Of a DNA stretch of 64,000 nt, positions 372-63,495 are shown piece after piece. The DNA comes from Desulfurivibrio alkaliphilus AHT 2. GTDB taxonomy: Bacteria > Desulfobacterota > Desulfobulbia > Desulfobulbales > Desulfurivibrionaceae. The notes below the pieces were generated by a model that worked only from the letters and a program-made list of their open reading frames with translations, did not search any database and had not been told where the DNA came from. The stretch's first letter is position 1, and each line of letters opens with the position of its first letter. A program made the position numbers and the translations under genes. The stretch lies in the NCBI RefSeq assembly GCF_000092205.1, contig NC_014216.1, positions 2,671,742 through 2,735,741 on the forward strand, read 5' to 3'.

Positions 372-521
372 GTAAGCGTTCAGCAGCACCGCATCTTCGG
401 GCGATCAGCCAGGCTTACGTACAGGGGTACGCTGCACCTGGCTGCTTGCCCGAACCTGCGGCACTGCTGAACGCTTACCGCCCGTTGAACCGGTAGGTTA
501 GTGCCTCTGAAGCACGGTTAC
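372..521 (+). repeat. Family-1 palindromic repeat, copy 1 (with second unit)
   Basis: The main palindrome (372-478) has ends GTAAGCGTTCAGCAG and CTGCTGAACGCTTAC, a perfect 15-bp outer stem, enclosing an imperfect stem with the conserved cores CACCGCATCTTCGGGCG and CTTGCCCGAACCTGCGGC. A second unit (479-521) runs from CGCCCGTTGAACCGG to a final GGTTAC. The element begins 2 nt after the stop codon of the HDOD gene and ends just before the ribosome binding site of the next gene. Confidence 0.9.
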
Positions 522-23061: not shown

Positions 23062-23994
23062 ATGAGCGCCGATTACCTTTTTCCGCATCGACACATCCTG
23101 GGGCTTGGTGATCTGGCCGCCGCCGATATCGATTTCATTCTTAAAACCGCCGAGAGCTTCAAGGAAATATCGCAACGCTCGATCAAGAAGGTGCCCACCC
23201 TGCGGGGGAAAACGGTTATCAACCTGTTTCTGGAACCCTCCACCCGCACCCGGCTCTCTTTCGAGATCGCCGCCAAGCGGATGAGCGCCGACACCTTCAA
23301 CATCTCCGGGGCCGGTAGCAGCACGGCTAAGGGTGAGACCATGGTGGATACGGCCCGTAACCTGGCGGCCATGAACCCCGACTGCATCATTATCCGTCAC
23401 TCCTGTTCCGGCTCCCCCGGCCTGCTGGCCCGGCATATCGATGCCTCGGTGATCAACGCCGGCGACGGGGCCCATGAGCACCCCAGCCAGGGCCTGTTGG
23501 ACCTGATGACGGTGCGGGAGCACAAGGGGCGAATTGCCGGTTTGAAAGTGGCGATCATCGGGGATATCACCCACAGCCGGGTGGCCCATTCCAATATTAT
23601 CGGCTTTTGCAAAATGGGGGCCGAGGTTCGGGTGGCCGGGCCCGCCACCTTGATCCCGCCGGGGATTGCCGCCATGGGCGCGCAGCATTGCCGCTCGGTG
23701 CGCCAGGCGGTGAGCGGGGCCGATGTGGTGATGACCCTGCGGATTCAGAAGGAGCGCCAGCAGGACCCGCTGCTGCCCTCCTTGCGGGAATACGCCATCT
23801 TTTACGGGATTACCCCGGAAATCATGGCCCTGGCCGCGCCCGATGCCATCCTGATGCACCCCGGCCCCATTAATCGAGGGGTTGAGCTTGATCCGGCCCT
23901 GGCCGACGGGCCCCGCTCGGTTATCCTGGACCAGGTGACCAACGGGGTGGCGATCAGGATGGCCCTATTGTACCTCATAATGGGTGGAGAATAG
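23062..23994 (+). CDS. pyrB: Aspartate carbamoyltransferase catalytic subunit
   Basis: 310 residues. Carbamoyl phosphate-binding motif STRTRLSFE (about 54-62), the HPSQGLLDL block and a C-terminal [11 protein letters not shown] aspartate-binding loop are all present. It performs the first committed step of pyrimidine synthesis and is followed by pyrC. The G of its TAG stop is the first base of a family-1 repeat that separates the two pyr genes. Confidence 0.97.
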
Positions 23995-24144
23995 TAATCG
24001 TACAGCAGCACCGCATCTTCGGGCGATCAGCCAGGCTTACGTACAGGGGGTACGCTGCGCCTGTCTGCTTGCCCGAACCTGCGGCACTGCTGAACGATTA
24101 CGGCCCGTTAGACCGGTAAGTTGGTACCCCTGGTGAACGTTTAC
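23994..24144 (+). repeat. Family-1 palindromic repeat, copy 2 (with second unit)
   Basis: The main palindrome (23994-24101) has ends GTAATCGTACAGCAG and CTGCTGAACGATTAC, with one mismatch in the outer stem. The second unit (24102-24144) ends GTGAACGTTTAC. It shares one base with the pyrB stop codon and ends next to the pyrC ribosome site. Confidence 0.9.
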
Positions 24145-24159
24145 GGAGAATAATTGCGT

Positions 24160-25473
24160 ATGTCTGCTGATGCTTCGATTTTGCTGGAAAACGCTCGGCT
24201 GCTGGACCCGGCTTCCGGTCTGGACGAGAAGGGATATCTGCTGGTGCACGAGGGCCGGATCGTGGCGGTGGCGGCGGGCAGCCCCGCGGGGTTGGAGTTG
24301 CCGCCGCAGTTGCGGCGGATTGACGCCGACGGTCGCTGGCTGGCACCCGGCCTGATCGACATCCATGTGCATTTGCGGGAACCCGGCGAGGAACACAAGG
24401 AAACCGTCGCCAGCGGGGCGGCGGCCGCCGCCGCCGGCGGCTTCACCGCCGTGGCCTGCATGCCCAACACCAGGCCGGTCAACGACAGCGCGGCGGTTAC
24501 CTGCCAGATCATGGCCGCCGCCGCCGGGGCCGCCGCCCGGGTTTACCCGGTGGGGGCCATCAGCGTGGGGTTGCAGGGCGAAACCCTGGCCCCTTTTGGT
24601 GAAATGCGCCGGGCCGGGGTGCGGGCGGTCAGTGACGACGGCCGGCCGGTGGGCAACAGCCAGTTCATGCGCCGGGCCTTGGAGTATGCCGGCGACCACG
24701 ACCTGCTGGTGATCAGCCATGCCGAAGATGACAGCTTGAGCCGCAACGGGGCGATGAACGAAGGGGAGACCGCCACCCGCCTGGGCCTGCGGGGGATTCC
24801 GGCAGTGGCCGAGGAGATTATGGTGCACCGGGAGCTGGCCCTGGCCGAGTATACCGGCCGGCCCATCCATATCGCCCATGTCAGTACCGCCGGAGCGGTT
24901 GACCTGGTGCGGCGGGCCAAGGCGCGGGGAGTGCAGGCGACGGCGGAAACCGCCCCCCACTACTTCACCCTCACCGAAGAGGCGGTGGGCCTTTACGACA
25001 CCCGGGCCAAGATGAACCCGCCGCTGCGCACCGCCGCCGATGTGGCCGCCATCCGCGAGGCCCTGGCCGACGGCACCCTGGAGGTGATCGCCACCGACCA
25101 TGCCCCCCACAGTGAACTGGAAAAGGAGCTGGAATTTGAACTGGCCGCCAACGGCATCATCGGCCTGGAAAGCGCCCTGCCTCTGAGCCTGGCCCTGGTG
25201 CGGGACGGCTTGCTCAGCCCCCTGCAACTGGTGGCCCTGATGAGCACCAATCCCGCCCGGATCCTGAGTGTGCCCGGCGGCCGCCTGGCGGTGGGCGAAC
25301 CCGCCGACCTGACCCTGATCGACCCGGATTACCGGTTTACCTTTCAGGCCGATCAACTCAAATCGCGCAGCCGCAACTCACCGTTTCTCGATTGGGAAAT
25401 GCAGGGCAGGGCGGTGCTGACCATCATGGATGGCCGGATTACCCATGAGGTCGTAAGCGTTCACCAGGGGTGA
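24160..25473 (+). CDS. pyrC: Dihydroorotase
   Basis: About 437 residues from the ATG at 24160; a TTG at 24154 closer to GGAGAA is the alternative. Metal-binding DIHVHLREPG, the carboxylated-Lys region GEEHKETV, ISHAEDD, HIAHVST and the C-terminal metal aspartate in ATDHAPHS are visible. It is a class I (PyrC/AllB-type) dihydroorotase acting after PyrB. The last six residues (VSVHQG) and the TGA stop lie inside a family-1 repeat that begins exactly at codon 432. Confidence 0.95.
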   Translation: MSADASILLENARLLDPASGLDEKGYLLVHEGRIVAVAAGSPAGLELPPQLRRIDADGRWLAPGLIDIHVHLREPGEEHKETVASGAAAAAAGGFTAVACMPNTRPVNDSAAVTCQIMAAAAGAAARVYPVGAISVGLQGETLAPFGEMRRAGVRAVSDDGRPVGNSQFMRRALEYAGDHDLLVISHAEDDSLSRNGAMNEGETATRLGLRGIPAVAEEIMVHRELALAEYTGRPIHIAHVSTAGAVDLVRRAKARGVQATAETAPHYFTLTEEAVGLYDTRAKMNPPLRTAADVAAIREALADGTLEVIATDHAPHSELEKELEFELAANGIIGLESALPLSLALVRDGLLSPLQLVALMSTNPARILSVPGGRLAVGEPADLTLIDPDYRFTFQADQLKSRSRNSPFLDWEMQGRAVLTIMDGRITHEVVSVHQG

Positions 25474-25601
25474 TAGCTTACCGCTTAACGGGCTGTAATC
25501 GAACAGCCGTGCCGCAGGTTCGGGCAAGCAGCCAGGTGCAGCGTACATCAGTACGTAAGCCTGGCTGATCGCCCGAAGATGCGGTGCGGCTGTTCGATTA
25601 C
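25453..25601 (-). repeat. Family-1 palindromic repeat, copy 3 (with second unit)
   Basis: Second unit 25453-25493, main palindrome 25494-25601 with ends GTAATCGAACAGCCG and CGGCTGTTCGATTAC (perfect 15-bp outer stem). It overlaps the pyrC 3' end and stops 6 bp short of the stop codon of the convergent flagellar rod-like gene. Confidence 0.9.
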
Positions 25602-28507: not shown

Positions 28508-28658
28508 GTAACCGTTCACCAGGGGTACTAACCTACCGGTATAACGGGCCGTAAGCGAACAGCCGTGCCGCAGGTTCGGGCAAGCAGCCAGGCGCAGCGT
28601 ACCCCCTGTACGTAAGCCTGGCTGATCGCCCGAAGATGCGGTGCGGCTGTTCGCTTAC
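28508..28658 (-). repeat. Family-1 palindromic repeat, copy 4 (with second unit)
   Basis: Second unit 28508-28550; main palindrome from 28551 with ends GTAAGCGAACAGCCG and CGGCTGTTCGCTTAC (perfect outer stem). It abuts the dprA stop codon (28659) with no gap and sits between dprA and topA. Confidence 0.9.

Positions 28659-29790: not shown

Positions 29791-29804
<14 letters not shown>
28659..29804 (-). CDS. dprA: DNA-processing protein DprA
   Basis: 381 residues. An N-terminal helix-hairpin-helix/SAM-like part ([15 protein letters not shown]) is followed by the Rossmann-type DNA-binding domain: [49 protein letters not shown] and [12 protein letters not shown]-terminal winged-helix domain follows a Gly/Ala/Pro linker. 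DprA loads RecA on incoming single-stranded DNA in natural transformation, and the window also encodes the type IV pilus core. Its start overlaps the rpoD end by 14 nt. Confidence 0.94.
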
Positions 29805-31458
<1,654 letters not shown>

Positions 31459-31482: not shown

Positions 31483-31589
31483 GTAAGCGTTCAACAGTGC
31501 CGCAGGTTTGGCCTTGCAGCCAGGCGCAGCGTACATCAGTACGTAAGCCTGGCTGATCGCCCGAAGATGCGGTGCGGCTGAACGCTTAC
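31483..31589 (-). repeat. Family-1 palindromic repeat, copy 5 (main palindrome only)
   Basis: Ends GTAAGCGTTCAACAG and CGGCTGAACGCTTAC. Its terminal TTAC, read on the minus strand as GTAA, supplies the TAA stop codon of dnaG (31586-31588). No second unit is present. It fills the dnaG-rpoD gap. Confidence 0.9.
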
Positions 31590-33364
31590 TGCAGGGCTTG
31601 TTTCTGCTGCATCAACTCCAGCAGCCGCTGTTGGTCGCCGCTCTGGTAGGCGGCGTTGATTTCCCGGTTAAGCTGGTCGGCGGTTTTTTTACGCTGGTTG
31701 CGTTTTAGCCATTGCATAAGCTGCTGGGAACTCTCTTCCCGGTGTTCATCGGGGTAAAAGGTGCCGCCCTGAATCAGCAGGCGCGCCACCAGCGGCTTGA
31801 AGCTGCCCTCGGCCAGGTTGAGTAGATTTTCCGGGGTGCGGACAAAATCGTTGCCGGCCTCGAGCATCAGCTCCAGCAACCGGTGGGCGGCGGGGCTGGT
31901 AATGACCTCCTGCAGCCCGGCTTCCATGAAGTCCGGCAGGTGAGAACCATGCAGGAAAAGGAAGGCAAACAGTTTTTCCTCGTTGGCTTCCAGCCGGGCG
32001 GTTGCCTCCTGGTCGCCTTCTTCCGGGGGCTGGCGGCGAACCTGGGGCCGGCGGGCGATGCTCTGGCAGAACTGGTCGCCGGAGATCCCCAGCCGCTCGC
32101 TGAAGTGTGCAATAAAGCGGGTACGCAGCAGCATCTGGTCATCCAGGCTGTGCACGATGGGGGCAAGCTCTTCGATGATCCGGTTTTTGCCGTCCACCCC
32201 CAGGCCGTGCCGGGCCACCAGTTCGGTAAAGACGAACTCCGGCAGGGAAACGGCGGCGACGGTCAGTTGCCGCAATCCGTCGGGGCCGTGGTGGCGGACA
32301 AAGGTGTCCGGGTCGTGGCCTTCCGGCAGCATGGCCACCCGGCCGGTGAGCTTGGCGGCCAAAAACAGCGGGATGGCCCGCATGGCCGCCTTGAGCCCGG
32401 CGGCGTCGCCGTCGAACAGCAGGACCGCCTCGTCGGCATACCCCCGGAGGATCCGCAGGTGTTCCGTGGTCAGGGCGGTGCCCAGGGGGGCGACCACCTC
32501 GGAGATTTCGTGGGCCGCCAGGGCCAGCAGATCGAAGTTGCCTTCCACCAGCAGGCAGCTTTTGGCCTTGCGAATGGCCTCGCGATGCTGGTAAAGCCCG
32601 AACAGGATACGGCTTTTGTCGAATACCGGGGTTTCCGGAGTGTTTAGATATTTGGGCTCACCCTGGCCGAGAATGCGGCCGCCAAAACCGCAAACCCGGC
32701 CGGTAAGGTCGGTGATGGGAAAAATTATTCGGTTACGGAAGCGGTCGTAGTAGCCGCGGGCGGAATGGCCGTCGGGGGCGTTTTTTTTGGCCGCCAACAG
32801 ACCGGCCTCGGCGGCCAGTTCCGGCGAGAGCCGCTCTTTTTTGAGCTGATTGAAGAGGAAATCCCAGCTGTCCGGGGCAAAGCCCAGTTGAAAGCGCTGG
32901 ATGATTTCCCCGGCCATGCCCCGTTGGGCCAGGTAGTCGCGGGCCGCGGCGGCGGCCGGGCTGTGCAGCAGGTAGTGGTGGTAAAGTTCGGCGGCCCGGG
33001 CGTTGACGGCGTAAAGATTTTCCCGCCGGCGGGCTTCCTCCTGCTGCTGCGGCGTCAGGGTGTTTTCCGCCAGGGGAATCCGGTAACGGTCGGCCAGTTG
33101 CCTTAAGGCTTCGGGAAAGCTGAGCCGGTGGTAGAGCATGAGAAAGCTGAAGACATCACCGCCTTCGCCGCAGCCGAAACAGTGGAAACTGCCGCGGTCG
33201 GGGCTGACCATGAAGGAGGGTGTTTTCTCGGCATGGAAAGGGCACAGGCCCTTGAGATTGGCTCCCGAGCGCTGCAGGCTGACATGCTCACCGATAATTT
33301 CGGCAATATCCGCCGCTTCCTTAATCCGCCGAACGACTTCCTGGCGTGTCTGCTCTGCCGCCAT
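31586..33364 (-). CDS. dnaG: DNA primase
   Basis: 592 residues. The N-terminal CHC2 zinc finger ([17 protein letters not shown]...[17 protein letters not shown]), the RNA-polymerase-like core ([23 protein letters not shown]) and the Toprim motifs ([26 protein letters not shown]) are all seen. The C-terminal helicase-binding region is Gln/Glu-rich. It makes RNA primers at the replication fork. The stop codon comes from family-1 repeat copy 5. Confidence 0.97.
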
Positions 33365-34842: not shown

Positions 34843-37134
34843 ATGAAAAACCTTTACGATCATCTTGAGGCCCGGGAGTTTGTGGCTGCCCGTTCTGATT
34901 GTTCCGAAGCGCTGGCCCTGCGGGTTTATACCTCGCGGCTGATCGGCCGTGAACCGGAACTGGTGCTGCATGGCGGCGGCAACACCTCGGTTAAGGCGGT
35001 GGTTCCCAATATCCTGGGCGAGGAGATGGAAGTGCTCTACATCAAGGGCAGCGGCTGGGATCTGGCCACCATCGAGGCGGCCGGTTTTCCCGGCCTGGAT
35101 CTGGCCTGGCTGCGTCGTCTGCGGGTGCTTGAGCGCTTGAGCGATGAGGAGATGGTCAACCAGTTCCGTACCCACCTGCTGGATGCCGCCGCCCCGGGGC
35201 CGTCCATTGAAACCCTGGTGCATGCCTTTCTGCCCCACCGTTTCATTGATCACACCCACGCCGACGCCATTGTCACCCTGACCAACCGCCATCAGCCGGA
35301 AAAGCTGTTGCGGGAGGCTTTGGGCGACCGGATCGCCATCCTGCCCTTTATCATGCCGGGCTTTCCTCTGGCCAAGGCCATGGCCGCCGCCTATGAGGAA
35401 AACCCGCAGATTGAAGCGATTATTTTGCTCAACCACGGGATTTTCACCTTTGCCGACGAGGCCGAGACCGCCTACGGCCGGATGATCGATTACGTCAGCC
35501 GGGCCGAAAATTTTTTGACCAAGGTGGCCCAAGAATGGAGCGCCAGGGGAGAAGATCTTAAGGCACTTGGTCATGGCACCGGGGTGGGGGCCGCCAACTC
35601 CGGTAGCGGCTCATTCTCGGCGGACCTGCGGCCCGCCTCCGAGGCGTCGGCTGCCGCCGACGAACCCGCCGCTACCGGAGTTGGCGGCCCCCGTCCAGGC
35701 GCGGATGTGACGGGTGCCCGGGAGGGCGTCAACGCCTCTGGCGCCGAAGTCCTGGCTTCGCCTCCGCCGCCTGCTCCGGTGGAACTGCTGCCCCTGCTGC
35801 GGGGTGCCCTGAACCGCGGCCTGGAAGACCAACGCTTGTGCTTCAGCCTGGACTGGCGGCGGGATACCGACCTGCAGGCGGCCCTGGCCCGGCCCGACGG
35901 CCGTGAGCTGTTCACCGGCGGGGTATTGACCCCCGATCATGTGATCCGCACCAAGAACTACCCGCTGTGGCTGGATTTTGCCGGGGCGTCCGACGAAGCG
36001 GCCCGGAACGCTTACCTGAAACGGGCCCTGGCTGACTATGCTGCCGCTTACCAGGGCTATTTTGAGGAGCAGTGCGCCGCCGGGAAGGTGCAAAAACAGC
36101 GGCTGGATCTGCTGCCCCGGGTGATTATGGTCCCCGGCCTGGGCCTGATCGGGGCCGGCACCAGCCCGGCGGCGGCCCGGATCGCCGCCGATATCGCCAC
36201 CCATACGGTGCGGGCCAAGCTGCGGGGTGCGGCCTTGGGGCAATACCGGGAACTGGAGCCGGCCTCGATCTTTGCCATGGAGTACTGGAGCCTGGAACAG
36301 GCCAAGCTGGGCAAGGGCAGCCCAAGGCTGCTGGAGGGCAGAACAGCCTTGGTTACCGGCGGTGGCGGGGCCATGGCCCTGGGCATTGCCGATCGCCTGC
36401 TGGCCGCCGGCGCCCGGGTCCTGCTGGCCGATATTCAACCGGAGCGCCTGCAACTGGTGGTCGACAAATTACAGCGGCGCTTTGCCCCGGAACTGGTGCA
36501 GGGACTAAAGTTTGACGTCACCGACCCGGAGTCGGTGCGCGCCGGGTTTGCGCAGTTGGTGGGGCAGACCGGAGGCCTGGACATCTTGGTGCCCAACGCC
36601 GGGATTGCCCAAGTGGCCAGGCTGGAGGAACTGTCGGCGGAGGGTTTCCGCCGGGTGATGGCGGTCAATGCCGACGGGGTGCTGCTGACCATCCGGGAGG
36701 CGGCGAAAATTTTCCGGCGTCAAAATTGCGGCGGCCAGATCGTCATCAACAGCTCCAAAAATGTCTTCGATCCCGGTGCCGCTTTCGGGGCTTACAGCGC
36801 CTCCAAGGCGGCGGCGCACCAGCTGGGGAAAATCGCCGCCCTGGAACTGGCGGAAATCGGGGTGCGGGTCAACATGATCAACGCCGATGCGGTTTTCGAC
36901 GCCGACGGGGTTTCCTCCGGGCTCTGGGACCTGGTGGGGCCGGAGCGGATGCAGGCCCGCAACCTGGACCCGGAAGGCCTGCGGGCCTATTACCGCCAGC
37001 GCAACCTGCTGAAAACCGAGGTCAAAGCTGAAGATGTGGGCAACGCCGTGGTCTTCTTCGCCGCCGGCCAGACCCCCACCACCGGCGCCACCCTGCCGGT
37101 GGATGGCGGCATACCCGCCGCTTTTCCCCGGTAA
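34843..37134 (+). CDS. Bifunctional class II aldolase / short-chain dehydrogenase
   Basis: 763 residues from the ATG at 34843, preceded by AAGGAA. The N-terminal half is a class II aldolase/adducin domain (HGGGNTSVKA; metal-binding HTHADAI; ILLNHGIFTF). The C-terminal half (about 500-763) is a Rossmann dehydrogenase (LVTGGGGAMALGIADRLLAAG; NAGIA; catalytic YSASKAAAHQ). This is the RhaD/YuxG-type fusion likely acting on a deoxy-sugar phosphate or similar polyol; the substrate is unknown. Residues about 245-312 are a Gly/Ala/Ser/Pro-rich insertion, of which 245-285 is encoded by an intact family-2 repeat in frame. It ends at a family-1 GTAA. Confidence 0.88.
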   Translation: MKNLYDHLEAREFVAARSDCSEALALRVYTSRLIGREPELVLHGGGNTSVKAVVPNILGEEMEVLYIKGSGWDLATIEAAGFPGLDLAWLRRLRVLERLSDEEMVNQFRTHLLDAAAPGPSIETLVHAFLPHRFIDHTHADAIVTLTNRHQPEKLLREALGDRIAILPFIMPGFPLAKAMAAAYEENPQIEAIILLNHGIFTFADEAETAYGRMIDYVSRAENFLTKVAQEWSARGEDLKALGHGTGVGAANSGSGSFSADLRPASEASAAADEPAATGVGGPRPGADVTGAREGVNASGAEVLASPPPPAPVELLPLLRGALNRGLEDQRLCFSLDWRRDTDLQAALARPDGRELFTGGVLTPDHVIRTKNYPLWLDFAGASDEAARNAYLKRALADYAAAYQGYFEEQCAAGKVQKQRLDLLPRVIMVPGLGLIGAGTSPAAARIAADIATHTVRAKLRGAALGQYRELEPASIFAMEYWSLEQAKLGKGSPRLLEGRTALVTGGGGAMALGIADRLLAAGARVLLADIQPERLQLVVDKLQRRFAPELVQGLKFDVTDPESVRAGFAQLVGQTGGLDILVPNAGIAQVARLEELSAEGFRRVMAVNADGVLLTIREAAKIFRRQNCGGQIVINSSKNVFDPGAAFGAYSASKAAAHQLGKIAALELAEIGVRVNMINADAVFDADGVSSGLWDLVGPERMQARNLDPEGLRAYYRQRNLLKTEVKAEDVGNAVVFFAAGQTPTTGATLPVDGGIPAAFPR
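35575..35700 (-). repeat. Family-2 three-way-junction repeat, copy B, inside a coding sequence
   Basis: A perfect 25-bp outer stem (35586-35610 with 35668-35692; core CCAACTCCGGTAGCGGC) encloses hairpins CTCGGCGG/CCGCCTCCGAG and GTCGGC/GCCGAC. The inner order is reversed relative to copy A. The flank GCCCCCGTCCAGG is shared. It keeps the host frame open. Confidence 0.85.
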
Positions 37135-37140
37135 AAGCCG

Positions 37141-37248
37141 GTAAAAGTCCGTAAGCACCGCATCTTCGGGCGATCGCCCCGACTTGCGTACCTGGGGTAC
37201 GCGGCGCCGGGGCGCTTGCCCGAACCTGCGGCACTTACGAACTTTTAC
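37141..37248 (+). repeat. Family-1 palindromic repeat, copy 6 (main palindrome only)
   Basis: Ends GTAAAAGTCCGTAAG and CTTACGAACTTTTAC; the stem differs from all other copies but still pairs. A direct duplication of its edge, CCGGTAAAAG, lies at 37129-37138 and 37139-37148; the first GTAA supplies the stop of the upstream gene. Confidence 0.9.
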
Positions 37249-37381: not shown

Positions 37382-37505
37382 GTAAACGGGTCGCAGTGCC
37401 GCAGGTTGCGGCAAGCGGACCGGCGCCGCGTACCCCGGGTACGCAAGCCGGGCCGATCGCCGCAAGATGCGGTGCTGCGGCCCGTTTACCCTGCGGCCCG
37501 TTTAC
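37382..37505 (-). repeat. Family-1 palindromic repeat, copy 7 (main palindrome only, edge duplicated)
   Basis: Ends GTAAACGGGTCGCAG and CTGCGGCCCGTTTAC (37489). The terminal 16 bp (CTGCGGCCCGTTTACC) are repeated directly at 37491-37506. The second copy abuts the SH3-protein stop codon. Confidence 0.9.
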
Positions 37506-48319: not shown

Positions 48320-49386
48320 CGGGTGCCTCCGCTTTTTATGGGAGAATCCGTTGAAATTTTTGGTTGTTGCACCGGGCTTCGCGGCCCCCGTCCATGCGCG
48401 GAGGCCTGGTTTTTTTCCCAATGGATAAGGGCCCACTGGGAGGGGGTGTCGCGGCGCAGGGCCAGGCGGCCGTCCGGCTTGGGGTGCAGGCGGGCGTCTG
48501 CGTACTCCTCCAGGCGGTGCTGTTCTTCGGGGGAAAGGGGTTCTTCGGCCGGGATCATCCAGAGCAGGGAGTCGATGGCCCGTTGCCGATCCGGATAAAT
48601 TCGTTCGTGGTCGAGGATGATGAAGTCCACCTTGGCGTGGATACCCAGTCGGTAGAGGATGTTGAGGGTGTAGATATAATCCGGGCCGGGGTCGAAGGGG
48701 CGGCCCAGGGCGGCAAAGAGTTCCGGGTCGAAGGGGCCGGCCCCCACCCGGTCGCCGATGATGGCCAGGCATTTGCTGAAGCGGTCCATCTTTTTTAACG
48801 CCCCCTCCAGGTCGTCCACCGCCAGGGAACGGGAGGCGATGACCACGTCGTGGGCCTCTATGGCCAGTTTCTCCCAGTCATCCTCCCAGGCTGCCTGGAC
48901 GGGGCGGATGTTGTTAAGGCCCTGGCGCTGCTGTTCCTTGCTCAGTTCGGCCAGCATGGCGGCGGCGTAGTCAACGGCGGTTACCCGGTGCACCCGGCGG
49001 GCCAAAGGCAGAGCCAGGGTGCCGGGGCCGCAGCCGGCATCCAGCACGGTCCAGTGCGGTTGCCAGTGGAACCTGGCGAGGAACTGGTCGGTGTAGGGGG
49101 AGTCCAGGTTGCGGCTGGCAAAGTCGGCCGCCCGCCGGTCCCACTCTCCCCGGTTGCGGCGGGGTCGGCTCTTGTGGCGCCGCTCTTCCCGCCACATGGC
49201 GTTCCAGTCAAGATCGCGGTAGCGTAAGCGATCACGGGGCACCCCACCTTGCGGCAAGCGGGCCGGCTCACGTGCTGGAGCACGCATCGCCGTCCCGCTT
49301 GCCGCAATCTGGGGCACCCCGTGACCGCTTACCCCTCGATCCCCTTTATCATTTTGATCATTTTGATCATTTATGCGGTGGCGCAT
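48307..49386 (-). CDS. SAM-dependent methyltransferase, class I, with repeat-derived N-terminus
   Basis: Up to 359 residues. The SAM-binding glycine motif VLDAGCGPGTLALPLA (about 113-128) is followed by VTAVDYAAAMLAEL. The C-terminal part (WALIHWEKNQ) is family-typical but the substrate is unknown. Residues about 18-54 are encoded by family-1 copy 8 (49224-49332). The first conserved residues are near RYRDLDWNAMW, so the true start may be the GTG near 49242 or the ATG at 49201. The stop overlaps the trkA start by 13 nt. A short family-2-like fragment is at 48370-48403 near the 3' end. Confidence 0.7.
   Translation of the reverse strand: MRHRINDQNDQNDKGDRGVSGHGVPQIAASGTAMRAPAREPARLPQGGVPRDRLRYRDLDWNAMWREERRHKSRPRRNRGEWDRRAADFASRNLDSPYTDQFLARFHWQPHWTVLDAGCGPGTLALPLARRVHRVTAVDYAAAMLAELSKEQQRQGLNNIRPVQAAWEDDWEKLAIEAHDVVIASRSLAVDDLEGALKKMDRFSKCLAIIGDRVGAGPFDPELFAALGRPFDPGPDYIYTLNILYRLGIHAKVDFIILDHERIYPDRQRAIDSLLWMIPAEEPLSPEEQHRLEEYADARLHPKPDGRLALRRDTPSQWALIHWEKNQASAHGRGPRSPVQQPKISTDSPIKSGGTRCGS
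49224..49332 (-). repeat. Family-1 palindromic repeat, copy 8 (diverged), in the methyltransferase 5' region
   Basis: Ends GTAAGCGATCACGGGGCACC and GGCACCCCGTGACCGCTTAC pair with few mismatches, and the centre keeps the TTGCGGCAAGCGG / CCGCTTGCCGCAA motif seen in copy 7. The boundary GTAA...TTAC is kept. It is 89 bp from the preceding gene stop, not flush as in other copies. Confidence 0.75.
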
Positions 49387-63029: not shown

Positions 63030-63051
63030 GGTCCTATCCTCTGCTGTAATG

Positions 63052-63202
63052 GTATCCGTTCACCAGGTTTACTAACTTAGCTGTCTGACGGGCCGTAATC
63101 GTTCAGCAGTGCCGCAGATTCGGGTAAGCAGCCAGGCGCCGCGTACACCGGGTACTCAAGCCTGGCTGATCGCCCGAAGGTGCGGTGCTGCTGAACGATT
63201 AC
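63052..63202 (-). repeat. Family-1 palindromic repeat, copy 9 (with second unit)
   Basis: Second unit 63052-63094 (starts GTATCC instead of GTAA); main palindrome to 63202 with ends GTAATCGTTCAGCAG and CTGCTGAACGATTAC (perfect stem). Its final TTAC supplies the flgJ stop codon (63199-63201). It sits between flgJ and flgN. Confidence 0.9.
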
Positions 63203-63495
63203 CTGTAATGCTGCTGGTTGATCTGCCGGTAGAGCATTTCACCGAACCCCATCCCTTTGCCGGAGGCCAGGTGCCGGGCCAGCTCCTGGTCGTGGAGCGA
63301 CTGGTACATCTCTTCGGCATGCCCTCCGCCCAGCAGATCGCTCTGGGGCCCGGTCTGGCGGGCCATGCTGAGGAATTTCTGCAGGATGATGGCCTCGAAC
63401 TCGGCGCAGGCCTGCCGCAATTGGGGATTTCCTTCCTTATCGGACGTTGCGGTCGCGGGCTTGAATGGGCCGCCGGTCAGGCTGTTGATTTCCAT
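63199..63495 (-). CDS. flgJ: FlgJ-like rod-binding protein (no muramidase domain)
   Basis: 98 residues: CAEFEAIILQKFLSMARQTGPQSDLLGGGHAEEMYQSLHDQELARHLASG is the rod-binding domain PF10135 type. The peptidoglycan hydrolase domain of enterobacterial FlgJ is absent, as in many non-enteric bacteria. It follows flgI and its stop codon is within family-1 copy 9. Confidence 0.93.
   Translation of the reverse strand: MEINSLTGGPFKPATATSDKEGNPQLRQACAEFEAIILQKFLSMARQTGPQSDLLGGGHAEEMYQSLHDQELARHLASGKGMGFGEMLYRQINQQHYR

Follow-up and report, generated by a model that had tools for sequence, protein, structure and literature searches.

A probable IS66-type miniature transposon family supplies terminal GTAA stop codons to genes of Desulfurivibrio alkaliphilus

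Introduction

In the single-contig genome of Desulfurivibrio alkaliphilus AHT 2 (3,097,763 bases), the essential primase gene dnaG ends within a palindromic repeat that separates it from the sigma factor gene rpoD. What is this repeat, does it provide the stop codons of the genes beside it, and does it act on their expression? The original prediction, made for the 64,000-nucleotide (nt) stretch of DNA analyzed here (the window), held that a mobile-like repeat supplies gene ends at several sites and that its copy at dnaG may tune the ratio of primase to sigma factor. Here, we examined the repeat within the window, across the genome, and in relatives.

Results

Architecture and copies of the repeat. 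The repeat is a quasi-palindrome of 107 to 108 nt (GTAANCG...CGNTTAC). A covariance model was built from 36 copies, and a genome search with this model listed 150 copies; three copies of the window were absent among the matches listed, and the genome therefore carries at least 150 copies, with the true number being higher. The sequence around all 150 listed copies (447 kb) was analyzed, and genes beyond the window were called with a home-made hexamer caller. In the long form (92 of the 150 copies), the core is preceded on its left by a 43-nt arm, yielding an element of approximately 150 nt that begins with GTAACCGTTCACC in the arm and finishes with TGAACGNTTAC at the end of the 107-nt core. 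The other 58 copies, among them the one at dnaG, are core-only. With a length of 107 to 150 nt and a high copy number, the repeat has no coding capacity for a transposase. A search of the 64-kb window against Rfam 15 gave no match at the gathering score, and a search of phage records matched sigma factors only. Many near-identical copies were also seen at contig ends of one relative (genome G003, L274-L283), indicating that the repeat breaks assemblies of that genome. The copies of the window and the genes at dnaG are listed in Table 1. The diverged palindrome at 49224-49332, which ends in GTAAGCG...CGCTTAC, possibly represents a third, older subfamily.

Table 1. Repeat copies and the dnaG-rpoD genes within the window
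Feature	Position	Strand	Remarks
Long copy, 150 nt	372..521	-	Target duplication CAATAAAG at 364-371 and 522-529
Long copy, pyrB/pyrC gap	23994..24144	-	Target duplication GGAGAATA at 23986-23993 and 24145-24152
Long copy at pyrC end	25453..25601	+	Target duplication ATGAGGTC/ATGAGGTT
Long copy	28508..28658	+	Target duplication TCAGGTTT, perfect
rpoD sigma factor	29791..31458	-	Downstream of copy 31483..31589; Pfam
Core-only copy, 107-nt quasi-palindrome	31483..31589	+	dnaG-rpoD gap; without 43-nt arm and 8-bp target duplication
dnaG primase	31586..33364	-	Stop is the terminal GTAA of the repeat; Pfam DNAG_N, Zn_ribbon
Diverged core-only copy	37141..37248	-	Outer stem changed yet paired (GTAAAAG...CTTTTAC)
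Diverged core-only copy	37382..37489	+	GTAAACGGGTCGC... subtype
Candidate distant member	49224..49332	.	Palindrome GTAAGCGATCACGGGG...CCCGTGACCGCTTAC; no target duplication
Long copy at flgJ end	63052..63202	+	Perfect target duplication CTGTAATG at 63044-63051 and 63203-63210

Gene ends within the window. The repeat affects the stops of four genes in the window, namely dnaG, flgJ, pyrB, and pyrC; Pfam matches agreed with the gene names. The predicted position of the dnaG stop was confirmed, as its TAA (TTA on the plus strand, 31586-31588) lies inside the CGCTTAC of the copy. Similarly, the flgJ-like gene (63199-63495, minus strand; Pfam Rod-binding PF10135) stops at 63199-63201 inside the terminal GATTAC of copy 63052-63202, and the TAG of pyrB (23062-23994) shares its G, the first base of copy 23994-24144, with the repeat, both as had been proposed. 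The aldolase/SDR gene was likewise described correctly: its TAA (37132-37134) is part of a GTAAAAG that is duplicated just before copy 37141-37248, and this copy begins 6 nt after the stop, which thus lies outside it. The fourth affected gene, pyrC (24181-25473), had been missed; it takes its last residues and its TGA stop from the 43-nt arm of copy 25453-25601. Read off the flanks of this copy, the rebuilt native protein ended in THEVSF and now ends in THEVVSVHQG, while the flgJ product changed from a rebuilt QQHYSRG to QQHYR. At pyrB, the native TAA spanned the insertion junction and is now TAG, leaving the protein unchanged; the 8-bp duplication at this site also restores a GGAG, possibly preserving a ribosome-binding site for pyrC.

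Supply of stop codons across the genome. A called gene stop was located inside the repeat in 48 of the 150 listed copies, and in 41 of these 48 it fell exactly at the terminal G-TAA. The proposal that the repeat supplies stop codons is therefore borne out by 41 in-frame cases among the 150 listed copies. Read from the core end in the sense of the gene, the consensus provides an immediate TAA in one frame, and the other two frames are stop-free. An insertion in either of these would add a long tail, and the rarity of such cases points to selection; insertions in the two open frames were presumably purged. When empty sites were rebuilt by joining the flanks at the duplications, nearly all copies with 7 or 8 matching positions of 8 had their native stop at -2 to +31 nt relative to the junction, with one native stop at +64 nt.

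Stops were also compared with those of 28 orthologs in the relative G002. Approximately 24 of them had no recognizable element at the site, and the stops of these were located between -5 and +40 nt of the junction as projected; at least 2 of the 28 shared the element, and 2 more contained related or remnant sequence. Several G002 proteins carry longer tails (LKPARP versus LKPV, FFDLREVAR versus FFDLR, AKSNKRS versus PKS). Several orthologs stop at the identical codon without an obvious element, so that some G-TAA stops left the protein as it was. The check suggested by the original prediction, a comparison with relatives lacking the repeat at dnaG, favored that prediction for this gene and revealed ends that differ from the QKQALQ found here: QKQALHG (TGA) in G002, QKQSLNGLNAHQGQ in G001 (L044), and QERQI in G004, or, in short form, QALHG, QSLNGLNAHQGQ, and QERQI.

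Target duplications and kinship to IS66. Direct repeats of 8 bp flank 65 of the 92 long copies at 7 or 8 matching positions (46 at 8/8 and 19 at 7/8). When flanks of different copies were paired as a null, the corresponding values were 0.02% at 8/8 and 0.25% at 7/8. In two relatives, G013 (another genus) and G027 (another family), such duplications flank 19 of 19 and 10 of 12 long copies, respectively. Only 4 of the 58 core-only copies reach 7 or 8 matches, 54 being below 7/8, and the copy at dnaG is flanked by the dissimilar sequences AGATATGT and TGCAGGGC. The genome encodes one IS66 transposase, in an element with the ends GTAAGCGCTCAGCAAACCCC and GTAAGCGCTCAATGAACCCC, and an open-frame IS66 of G002 has the same ends. 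The motif GTAANCGYTCA is common to the repeat and to the IS66 ends of both genomes, and the repeat ends match the first 11 to 13 bases, approximately, of the resident IS66. Inverted repeats of IS66 elements begin with GTAAGCG and are accompanied by 8-bp direct repeats (PMC11946415). The mobility that had been proposed for the repeat is thus supported by the 8-bp target duplications and the terminal motif common to IS66.

Judged by these duplications and by the ends common to IS66, the long form is an IS66-type miniature inverted-repeat element (MITE), an identity proven for this form only. Its mobilizer would be an IS66 transposase, a role assigned indirectly, since the genome contains a single 1.5-kb IS66 without a target duplication and a search of G013 found no IS66. 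This resident element (L155, 2116500-2122500) probably arose by deletion from the 2.4-kb IS66 of G002. As core-only copies mostly lack duplications, arrival of the dnaG copy by insertion is something we infer; some core-only copies may be old residents, with orthologous sites occupied in G002 and G001.

Collectively, the most probable reading (probability of about 0.86) is that the repeat is a family of IS66-type MITEs whose terminal GTAA re-ends genes at insertion. An IS66-type transposase would mobilize the long form of approximately 150 nt and create the 8-bp target duplication. Where the element entered in or beside the last codons, its terminal GTAA would close the frame immediately, and the gene would lose or swap only a few residues. 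The core-only dnaG copy would have come by the same route. Speculatively, the transcribed hairpin might then alter mRNA decay or translation, by analogy with REP or ERIC elements.

Placement, orientation, and covariation of the stems. The repeat is placed and oriented with respect to genes in a highly nonuniform manner. Among copies outside genes, the core end was located at -4 to +8 nt of a stop for 48 of the 56 core-only ones and 52 of the 88 long ones (approximately 70% overall); if only core-only copies whose core end adjoins the 3′ end of a gene are considered, this holds for 48 of 52. Of the copies between codirectional genes, all 34 core-only ones and 40 of the 56 long ones had the core end directed toward the upstream gene, and between convergent genes, the closer stop was on the core-end side in nearly all cases. 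Young long copies are already polar, with stops at the core end in 26 of 46 and at the arm end in 4 of 46. Stop-facing copies also prevailed by 8 to 1 in G013; the pattern was absent among 12 young copies of G027, and it may therefore not extend to the repeat family as a whole. Stop supply was rejected as the cause of the polarity because insertions past an intact stop are equally polar. Orientation showed no bias with respect to the replichore, with the origin assumed near base 1.

The stem is paired at nearly every position across the copies, and all four Watson-Crick pairs occur at the fifth base from each end. In core-only copies, the two sides of the outer stem change together even if GTAA has been altered (GAAA...TTTC, ATAA...TTAT, GTGA...TCAC, GCAA...TTGC). 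Counted on a tree that is weak, being based on 108 columns only, the stem underwent 59 paired double changes, and one-sided changes comprised 64 from Watson-Crick to G.U and 10 from Watson-Crick to A.C on the model strand. The strand with the G.U preference is the template strand, antisense to the abutting gene. Mutation bias was rejected as the source of the G.U excess, as unpaired columns showed merely weak strand asymmetry.

These data bear on the strongest alternative, which we entertain tentatively: the core-only copies would be domesticated 3′-end hairpins with a role at the stop at the level of RNA (or single-stranded DNA), and the long MITE would have captured the core and now spreads it. 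Their tight placement at stops, the uniform facing between codirectional genes, the covariation of the outer stems, the double changes and G.U excess, and the presence of copies at the same sites in G002 and G001 all speak for it. However, pairing is conserved on the template strand rather than in the transcript of the abutting gene, compensatory changes could likewise result from arm-to-arm correction, the young long copies are polar already, and the tree is based on 108 columns. Somewhat more doubtful still is a mobile family that homes to stops, or is rapidly kept solely at them, in a fixed orientation, with the template-sense strand folding under selection. If true, a transposon hairpin would work at gene ends, in translation termination, at mRNA 3′ ends, or in antisense transcription, and it would have been domesticated many times within one genome.

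The dnaG-rpoD gap. The original prediction raised the idea that the element between dnaG and rpoD might set the primase:sigma ratio through partial termination or RNA processing. In the sense RNA, a strong hairpin of approximately -59 kcal/mol extends from the stop onward and occupies nearly the whole 127-nt gap, and ERIC MITEs in Yersinia destabilize upstream mRNA in an orientation-dependent manner (PMC2229807). Nevertheless, neither a terminator-like site nor a U-tract was found on the minus strand between 31380 and 31700, and a Rho-independent terminator was rejected because the GC-rich hairpin has no U-tract on the operon strand. Relatives, moreover, lack such an element in the gap: they have a start-stop overlap (G004), a short gap, or a different dispersed repeat (G002), suggesting that no conserved element is needed there. 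A ratio-setting role is thus possible but not supported, and we regard it as improbable. The repeat in the G002 gap (L125, approximately 1340-1560) is another dispersed palindrome, TCGCAAAAACCCGCC...GTTGGTCGGTAACACGAAAACAA..., also present in L332 and L337; two repeat families have reached the same gap independently.

Weaker alternatives. A repeat of the REP/REPIN type, mobilized by a Y1 (TnpA_REP) transposase, would also be palindromic and extragenic with a tetranucleotide tag, here GTAA, and the genome contains two Y1_Tnp genes. REPs and REPINs, however, are hairpins of 20 to 40 nt, tagged with GTAG or GGAG and flanking a Y1 transposase gene, and the repeat departs from them in its length of 107 to 150 nt, its tag, and its 8-bp duplications. 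An origin via Y1 was rejected since neither Y1 gene has a copy of this family beside it, the flanking repeats being different ones, and this alternative is largely excluded. The two Y1 (REP-type) transposase genes (L031, L032) each carry distinct short terminal repeats, GTCAAGTCTTGACATGACAG and AAGTTTTTAAGTCCGTCCCC-like. A merely fortuitous coincidence of gene ends and an intergenic repeat is excluded: short gaps (median of 38 nt) put any insertion close to a stop, but uniform insertion into intergenic gaps would place approximately 5% of core ends at 0 to 8 nt past a stop, compared with the 70% or so observed in the slightly wider interval of -4 to +8 nt, and 41 of the 48 contained stops are in-frame G-TAA.

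Discussion

Our results illustrate across the genome how a mini-transposon can persist where genes are closely packed: it settles at gene ends, and its terminal GTAA restores a stop. The genome also offers at least 150 natural hairpins, mostly within a few nucleotides of stops, on which the effect of structure at the stop on translation termination and mRNA decay could be studied. The uniform facing combined with covariation on one strand was unexpected and is testable.

Among known systems, the IS66 family resembles the repeat in its GTAA-starting terminal repeats (IS66/ISBst12-type ends) and its 8-bp target duplication, and the noncoding nature and many copies of the repeat are MITE-like. 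Unlike a plain IS66-family MITE, it contains an internal 107-nt quasi-palindrome, faces stops with its core end, and has core-only copies without duplication. No IS66-derived MITE was found described in the literature searched, with subscription papers and ISfinder lying outside the search. Integron attC sites were considered for their adjacency to stops and folding of one strand; by inspection, GTAANCG...CGNTTAC does not fit their consensus RYYYAAC...GTTRRRY. The Correia/NEMIS, ERIC, and RUP MITEs share a length of approximately 100 to 155 nt and stem-loop RNA with the repeat; Correia elements likewise have long and short forms (155 and 107), and ERIC shows orientation effects (PMC2229807). 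ERIC and Correia MITEs are also reported to affect mRNA in cis (PMC2229807). All of these are tabled with TA termini (PMC2229807), whereas the repeat described here has another terminal sequence and an 8-bp duplication. The termini of GTAG-tagged REPs reportedly often give a TAG stop to flanking open reading frames (PMC3733652); these are palindromic and close to gene ends, as is our repeat, which supplies TAA instead, but they measure 20 to 40 nt and carry GTAG/CGTC tags, in contrast to 107 to 150 nt with 8-bp duplications. Stop-giving repeats were thus already known, and what distinguishes the present family is its IS66-type mini-transposon build together with its strikingly fixed facing toward genes.
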